Made by a program: the position numbers and the translations under genes. This document shows positions 11,039 through 12,988 of a stretch of DNA of 64,000 bases, piece by piece. Source of the DNA: a virus. The stretch's first letter is position 1, and every line of letters starts with the position of its first letter. The stretch lies in the IMG/VR virus record IMGVR_UViG_3300008107_000102, positions 25,436 through 89,435 of that record; one strand, written 5' to 3'. A model generated the notes under the pieces. That model did no database searches. It had not been told where the DNA came from and was given only the letters and a program-made list of their open reading frames with translations.

Positions 11039-11068
11039 TTGACACAGCATTAGTAATTGTGTTAAAAT
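11039..11068 (+). promoter_or_regulatory. Sigma70-type promoter of the tRNA
   Basis: TTGACA (11039-11044) and TAAAAT (11063-11068) are separated by 18 bases. Transcription would start a few bases before the tRNA 5' end at 11081. Confidence 0.65.
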
Positions 11069-11080
11069 TAAAACAAACAA

Positions 11081-11163
11081 GGGTTAGTGGCCGAGTAGTC
11101 GAAGGCGACAGACTGTAAATCTGTAGATTTAATTCCACGCTGGTGCAAATCCAGCTTAACCCA
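11081..11163 (+). tRNA. tRNA-Tyr (anticodon GUA)
   Basis: 83 bases with a long variable arm, as in bacterial class II tRNA-Tyr. The acceptor stem is GGGTTAG (11081-11087) with TTAACCC (11156-11162), discriminator A at 11163, no encoded CCA. The anticodon stem is ACAGA/TCTGT (11108-11112/11120-11124) with the GTA anticodon at 11115-11117. The T stem is GCTGG/CCAGC; its loop reads TGCAAAT instead of the usual TTCAAAT, a minor oddity. A promoter lies just upstream. Confidence 0.9.
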
Positions 11164-11503: not shown

Positions 11504-11704
11504 AGGTACTAGGGACGGGAATTGAACCCGCAAAACTTAATTAAATCTACTCCTGACGAAACGCCCTTCCCTCACTCAATCTTTGCCAAGTTCGGTGGAT
11601 TCGCAAATTTCAGTTTTGAAACAAAAAACAAAGGTATTTTTTGCATTAAGTCCCTTTTCGGTTGAAGGCTCCGTTTCAGCCTTTAGCTACCAAGCTACCC
11701 TAGC
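11504..11704 (-). ncRNA. tRNA-like RNA of about 200 nt
   Basis: Read on the minus strand, the RNA begins GCTAGGG at 11704, seven bases after a consensus -10 box. It ends with a T-arm-like GCGGG-TTCAATT-CCCGT followed by CCCTAGT (11514-11508), A, CC. GCTAGGG and CCCTAGT form a seven-pair acceptor-like stem (one G-U). A D-arm-like AGCTTGGTAGC follows the 5' strand, and AAGGCT-GAAACGG-AGCCTT makes a clear hairpin. About 110 extra bases separate the halves, so it is not a normal tRNA. I do not find group I intron core elements or tmRNA hallmarks. It could be an interrupted tRNA, a divergent tmRNA-like RNA or a tRNA mimic. Confidence 0.55.
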
Positions 11705-11737
11705 ATTTCAATTATATCAGAGGCTTCTAAAATTGTC
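11668..11737. repeat. 70-bp direct repeat, copy 1
   Basis: This copy spans the promoter and 5' end of the tRNA-like RNA. About 93% identity (5 mismatches by eye) to 12919-12988, 1,251 bp away in the same orientation. The two copies bracket four small AT-rich genes. Confidence 0.85.
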
Positions 11738-11739
11738 AA
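11711..11739 (-). promoter_or_regulatory. Perfect consensus sigma70-type promoter
   Basis: On the minus strand TTGACA (11739-11734), exactly 17 bases, then TATAAT (11716-11711). The expected start, 11704, is the first base of the acceptor-like stem of the tRNA-like RNA. Confidence 0.85.
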
Positions 11740-12882: not shown

Positions 12883-12914
12883 AAAAAACAGAGGGTTGTC
12901 CCTCTGTTTTTTTG
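12883..12914. terminator. Bidirectional intrinsic terminator
   Basis: ACAGAGGG (12888-12895), loop TTGT, CCCTCTGT (12900-12907), flanked by an A-run upstream and a T-run downstream, so it works in both directions. It closes the AT-rich cassette. Confidence 0.9.
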
Positions 12915-12918
12915 TTAT

Positions 12919-12988
12919 GCTCCGTTTTGGCCTTTAGCTACCAAGCTACCCTAGCACTTCAATTCTATCAGAGACTTCTAAAATTGTC
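12919..12988. repeat. 70-bp direct repeat, copy 2
   Basis: Degenerate copy of 11668-11737. The -10 reads TAGAAT and the -35 AAGACA on the minus strand, so the promoter is weakened, and the tRNA-like body is missing beyond the first 40 bases. It ends 15 bases before the nucleotide kinase gene. Confidence 0.85.

Follow-up and report, generated by a model that had tools for sequence, protein, structure and literature searches.

What is the stretch of about 200 nucleotides that lies, in this phage genome, directly under a textbook bacterial promoter and ends like a tRNA? The window, meaning the whole 64,000-nt stretch of DNA analysed here, comes from a Ma-LMM01-like (Fukuivirus) phage of Microcystis and is part of an 89,435-base IMG/VR virus record. 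Its first part is collinear, at ∼92–94% identity, with the Fukuivirus isolates Ma-LMM01, MaMV-DC, DH01, CH01/02 and DL01/02. In the cultured phages the stretch carries no annotation, or shares no more than a few bases with the start of a gene, and searches of the literature found no description of the RNA. The evidence set out below makes it highly probable that the locus encodes a genuine structured RNA and that the 3′ half of this RNA is tRNA-like; the assignment of that RNA to a class, and above all to a use, is more tentative.

The locus, its promoter and its neighbours

The locus spans positions 11504–11739 on the minus strand, with a promoter upstream of an RNA of ∼200 nt. Its parts, and two neighbouring features, are:

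11734–11739, minus strand: −35 element TTGACA, kept in nearly all homologues
11711–11716, minus strand: −10 element TATAAT, preceded by TG; TAGAAT, TAAAAT or TAGGAT in relatives
11505–11704, minus strand: the RNA, ∼198–200 nt, from the predicted +1 (G1) to A73-CC (alignments A1 and A3)
11698–11704, minus strand: acceptor-like stem, 5′ strand GCTAGGG; pairs 6–67 and 1–72 vary yet pair
11684–11697, minus strand: short D-arm-like hairpin UAGCU-UGGU-AGCUA, on its own not significantly tRNA-like
11665–11683, minus strand: hairpin 2, AAGGCU-GAAACGG-AGCCUU, at the anticodon-arm position
11672–11678, minus strand: tentative long-range pairing, 5′ side UGAAACG in the loop of hairpin 2; 7 bp with 11557–11563
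11645–11652, minus strand: closing helix of the branched insert, 5′ strand GACUUAAU, invariant
11621–11644, minus strand: A-run/U-run hairpin (R)CAAAAAAUA-nnnn-URUUUUUUGU, with a variable loop
11542–11620, minus strand: core of the insert, nearly invariant in the alignment of copies, with helix AAAUUUGC/GUAGAUUU
11557–11563, minus strand: tentative long-range pairing, 3′ side CGUUUCG; excludes a small GGCG-UUU-CGUC hairpin
11534–11541, minus strand: closing helix of the branched insert, 3′ strand AUUAAGUU, pairing with GACUUAAU
11515–11531, minus strand: T-arm GCGGG-UUCAAUU-CCCGU, fitting the tRNA consensus GTTCRANYC (A57/G57 variation allowed)
11508–11514, minus strand: acceptor-like stem, 3′ strand CCCUAGU, followed by the discriminator A (11507) and CC (11506–11505)
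11081–11163, plus strand: phage-borne tRNA-Tyr(GUA), convergent with the RNA
12919–12988, minus strand: broken second copy, comprising a promoter remnant and ∼40 nt from the 5′ end of the RNA (70 nt at 93% identity)

A sequence-only reading of this DNA had described a perfect TTGACA-17-TATAAT promoter that places the transcription start on the first base of an acceptor-like stem, and both claims hold. The 17-nt spacer separates TTGACA (11739–11734) from TATAAT (11716–11711), TGAAAT follows, and G1 lies at 11704, 7 nt past the −10 element. No other exact consensus promoter occurs in the 64 kb of the window, where 0.01 would be expected by chance. The exact TATAAT is limited to the window genome and near-identical contigs; the LMM01 copy (NC_008562, positions 144,839–145,079) has the near-consensus TTGACA-17-TAGAAT. 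Since LMM01 reportedly transcribes from host SigA-type promoters in all phases of infection (PMC5780444), the promoter of the RNA should be active.

The acceptor-like strands GCTAGGG (11704–11698) and CCCTAGT (11514–11508) form six standard pairs and a G·U, followed by A-CC-T, in agreement with the earlier placing of the partner strand after a T-arm and before A-CC. The insert had been put at 110 bases, but the stretch from hairpin 2 to the T-arm measures about 133 nt. An H-type pseudoknot between the CGG of hairpin 2 and a downstream CCG was considered and rejected, as common G-to-A/T changes break its third pair. The folding energy of the RNA is unexceptional, mildly better than that of shuffled sequences (z −1.3 to −1.7).

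The RNA occurs in two phage contexts. In Fukuivirus it is encoded upstream of gp162, the gene of a kinase-like protein, in divergent orientation, and is convergent with the tRNA-Tyr gene. In a second set of contigs, which has a few genes in common with MaMV phages, it is flanked by a primase/helicase-like gene and by a conserved 67-codon reading frame (ORF67; L053 9036–9239), which follows the RNA in many contigs and starts 3–5 nt past the acceptor stem. ORF67 matches no Pfam or PHROG family and has weak matches in two cyanobacterial genomes only. The promoter in these ORF67-type phages (L053 8792–8833) contains a perfect 14-bp direct repeat, CCTGATAGGATTGA, at 28-bp spacing. The repeat CCTGATAGGATTGA resembles the 3′ end of what we take to be a common CRISPR repeat of cyanobacteria (P ∼0.0015 by shuffling), a lead only.

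In the window, the broken second copy occupies the usual site at gp162, where relatives have the RNA gene intact; a strong terminator-like hairpin (12883–12912, minus strand; 13 pairs, then a T-run) stands directly after it. The tRNA-Tyr(GUA) gene has a near-consensus promoter of its own (11039–11068, TTGACA-18-TAAAAT, 11 of 12 positions).

Conservation and pair-preserving change

Across the seven isolate phages the RNA is 94–95% identical. Scans of IMG/VR by sequence patterns and neighbouring genes yielded dozens of contigs. The full-length copies, 28 of them distinct, are found both in isolates and in IMG/VR contigs. Among the ORF67-type phages the mean difference is 2.0% in the RNA and 4.2% in the promoter, against 7.5% in ORF67, 12.5% at the four-fold sites of ORF67 and 12.3% in the upstream gene; the low divergence of the RNA could in part be due to recent spread.

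The changes that do occur tend to spare base pairs. Standard pairs fill 99.9% of pair cells, compared with 37–58% when the partners are slid, in a structure derived from the same sequences as those counted. A standard pair is kept in 14 of the 16 variable paired states, all 16 of which are transitions (P = 0.011 against a transitions-only expectation). Acceptor pair 6–67 is A-U, G-U or G-C across the phages and pair 1–72 is G·U or A-U, and the A/U-run hairpin has paired 1-nt deletions, one on each side, in LMM01, MaMV-DC and DH01. Two pairs are fully compensated; the shuffle control (97 of 500) is not significant, because most columns never vary. Covariation is thin since the copies are so alike: the closing helix GACUUAAU yields none because it is invariant, and the UGAAACG/CGUUUCG pairing has one compensatory change, G-C to A-U, in L062. 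On these alignments the predicted structure appears well supported for the acceptor stem and for the hairpin of A and U runs; the remaining helices are no more than plausible. The RNA thus has the conservation above its flanks and the pair-preserving change expected of a structured non-coding RNA, within the limits set by the high identity. One lineage (L033, L044, L045 and L053) keeps the whole RNA and has lost the 3′ strand of the acceptor, with CTGGGGACTATG in place of CTCTAGTACCTATG; it is a natural test of the importance of the acceptor.

The search for more distant relatives returned little. A D-arm/T-arm pattern recovered the known copies and one unrelated chance match, L137. That match, in a GC-rich phage contig (L137 2700–3080, minus strand), is an unrelated tRNA-like stretch of ∼110 nt (GCCTCGC ... 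CCCGGTTCGATTCCGGGGCGAGGCA) without an ARAGORN call. A scan of a genome collection for cellular homologues with a core 18-mer gave nine unrelated chance matches, 386 cyanobacterial genomes gave tRNAs or short low-complexity matches only, and a search of plasmids gave none.

Relation to tRNA, tmRNA and other RNA families

The 3′ half of the RNA can be called tRNA-like because of two results: its 3′ 33 nt score 38 against cyanobacterial tRNA 3′ ends, where the best of 200 shuffles scores 28, and a covariance model built from the RNA alone, with no tRNA in it, has tRNA genes as its top hits when run against 386 cyanobacterial genomes. At the matched sites ARAGORN called a tRNA in 12 of the 12 loci checked. 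The model (R1) matches the RNA itself at 246.8 bits, by construction. Of the marks of tRNA membership, the acceptor stem and a T-arm with a GTTCRANYC loop are present. The 5′ 41 nt score 22 against cyanobacterial tRNAs (null mean 21.5), no excess over shuffles, and at the D-arm and anticodon-arm positions the likeness to tRNA is only suggestive. An origin from tRNA-Phe, on the strength of a CTGAAA run resembling the Phe anticodon loop, was rejected since the 5′ half fits no better than shuffled sequence.

The sequence-only reading had left a choice between a new class of tRNA-like RNA and an interrupted tRNA, and had proposed a covariance search with tRNA and tmRNA models. No standard model in Rfam or ARAGORN explains the locus. 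None of 4,227 Rfam models, tRNA and tmRNA included, recognises the RNA, tRNA-Tyr being the only family above threshold in the window; at E values up to 10 nothing relevant overlaps it on its own strand; and ARAGORN at default settings reports the tRNA-Tyr of the window and misses the RNA. It resembles a class II tRNA (RF00005) in its acceptor stem, GTTCRANYC T-arm and discriminator A and in the overall arrangement of its helices, with a large insert where the variable arm would be. It departs from one in its length of 200 nt, its short D-arm-like hairpin, its branched insert of ∼120 nt, the lack of U33 and of a fixed anticodon loop, and the lack of any score with the tRNA model.

Could it then be a former tRNA gene with an insertion, one that no longer decodes or does not yet do so? 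ARAGORN does call a tRNA once ∼125 nt of the insert are removed, and in intron mode only it predicts, for 21 of 26 variants and for 10 of 300 shuffled controls, a tRNA-Pro(GGG) that lacks U33 and is split by a 105-nt intron. The latter call arises from the real 7-base complementarity of UGAAACG and CGUUUCG, which is possibly a long-range contact and is not proof of an intron. Conservation of the insert is at least that of the tRNA-like part, and because the insert is as constrained as the rest, the RNA is not a decaying pseudogene. The candidate anticodon loop (GAAACGG or variants) has 7 or, in L114 and L123, 9 nt, varies in sequence and never has U33, and decoding is therefore very unlikely; the bases before the T-arm complete no anticodon stem, and the 5′ half lacks significant similarity to any tRNA tested. 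As had been noted, the insert is without group I core elements: it is too short, and no Rfam intron family matches at E values up to 10. A degenerate or interrupted tRNA is thus improbable. A minimal tmRNA that tags stalled proteins would share with known tmRNAs (RF00023; cyano_tmRNA, RF01851) the tRNA-like half closed around a long insert, and offers a GCA triplet from which a frame runs to TGA. The earlier doubt about the AKNTFVF tag was justified, however: GCA is ACA in several phages, and the two single-base deletions in LMM01, DC and DH01 (−2 nt) break the frame. There is no conserved resume codon or tag frame, the predicted peptide end is unlike a degradation tag, position 3–70 is U-A in all copies and never the G3-U70 pair, the RNA is much shorter, and no tmRNA model matches it in Rfam or ARAGORN. 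The chance that it is a tmRNA is very slight indeed. A new class of tRNA-like RNA, by comparison, gains support at the level of sequence: the RNA matches no standard model, is conserved and appears structured, with a tRNA-like T-arm and acceptor half.

The omega RNA of IscB-like elements (HEARO, RF02033) is likewise a structured RNA of ∼200 nt in a variable insertion. The present RNA differs in having no guide-like end and in not lying beside the RRXRR gene gp171, which is ∼6 kb off in LMM01, and the HEARO model finds no match in 24 kb of LMM01. An IscB-type omega RNA was rejected, there being no Rfam HEARO match and no adjacent nuclease gene. The LMM01 gp171 product (L139 15606–16754) is a 382-aa RRXRR-domain protein with an IscB/IsrB-like N-terminal part; no HEARO RNA was found nearby.

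Presence, absence and possible role

Among the 37 ORF67 contigs with a readable junction, the RNA is present in 21 and absent in 16, at a single exact junction. The empty allele reads ATATAAATACCT-AATGATTGG; the filled allele has the same left flank, then promoter and RNA, then TACCTA(A)TGATTGG, with TACCT on both sides of the insert (a 5-bp repeat). Trees built from the flanks mix filled with empty alleles and show 5–7 changes between the two states. One Fukuivirus contig (L024) also lacks the promoter–RNA unit. LMM01 and other Fukuivirus retain a truncated ORF67 3′ of the RNA, a remnant that has gone from the window. Because the truncated frame follows the RNA there, the unit must have reached Fukuivirus by recombination with the second set of phages.

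These alleles bear on two further explanations. The start of ORF67 just past the acceptor stem would suit a cis-acting leader, a riboswitch or T-box-like element of the downstream gene. That idea is largely refuted and very doubtful: the 16 contigs without the RNA keep the frame intact, and in Fukuivirus the frame is truncated or gone with the RNA still invariant, so that each exists without the other and the RNA is not a leader of ORF67. The exact junction between TACCT repeats, the intermixed states and the second site in Fukuivirus, with its ORF67 remnant, would all suit a small mobile or insertion unit of promoter and RNA, whose hairpins serve its own movement and whose likeness to tRNA is incidental or captured. 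Exact loss between direct repeats combined with homologous exchange gives the same pattern, however, and the ORF67 remnants mark the Fukuivirus copies as having arrived by recombination, leaving one primary insertion site and no second independent one. Terminal inverted repeats are not evident, and the pair-preserving change in the acceptor indicates a working RNA. A mobile unit is for these reasons rather unlikely.

The preferred reading, with a probability of roughly 0.5, is an accessory, stand-alone structured non-coding RNA whose tRNA-like end sets and protects its 3′ end and docks host proteins that handle tRNAs. From its promoter we infer that host SigA RNA polymerase would start transcription at or beside G1. 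The first 7 nt would pair with the last, beside the T-arm, to form the tRNA-like acceptor/T-arm half, and the D-arm-like hairpin, the second hairpin and the branched domain of ∼120 nt would replace a working anticodon arm and variable arm. No terminator-like site lies 3′ of the RNA before 10560 in the window (>900 bases) or within 1.6 kb in LMM01, and cyanobacteria are not known to have Rho; tRNA 3′ processing at the acceptor stem is therefore the simplest way to end the transcript. Host RNase Z and CCA addition would make the 3′ end and would also stabilise the RNA.

The branched body would then be the effector. As a best guess, the RNA would tie up host proteins that attack or otherwise handle tRNAs, for instance by luring a defence nuclease directed at tRNAs. 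Acting as such a decoy may be its most likely use, a tentative proposal at modest odds that fits an RNA which phages exchange and can do without, yet whose sequence hardly varies. Strongly expressed phage tRNAs are known to counteract defences that cleave tRNA (PMC11555353, PMC13096335). The RNA shares with the tRNA-Tyr of T5/T6, which acts against retron-Eco7 and Septu (PMC11555353, PMC13096335), a strong promoter, carriage by a phage, tRNA features, dispensability and variable occurrence among phages, and its place next to a phage tRNA-Tyr is a further likeness. The T5/T6 tRNAs decode, whereas here counter-defence would be exerted by an RNA that probably does not. The tRNA-Tyr of the window may itself serve counter-defence, because work on E. 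coli phages has shown retron-Eco7 and Septu to target tRNA-Tyr (PMC11555353, PMC13096335). It is possible, at similarly modest odds, that the RNA represents a new class of phage RNA, in which the tRNA-like end is a passport, through 3′ processing and CCA addition, for an effector domain that acts as a decoy or inhibitor of tRNA-targeting immunity or of the translation machinery.

Few known bacterial RNAs combine a tRNA-like half with a long insert, tmRNA being the main one. The RNA described here is conserved in phages, lies outside the RNA family library searched and is unannotated in cultured Microcystis phages. It offers a testable case of a viral RNA that would hijack tRNA maturation, and a candidate for RNA-based counter-defence in Microcystis, which is known for the large number of its antiviral genes (PMC5780444). 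Both Ma-LMM01 and its host grow in culture, which makes it practical to test expression and deletion.
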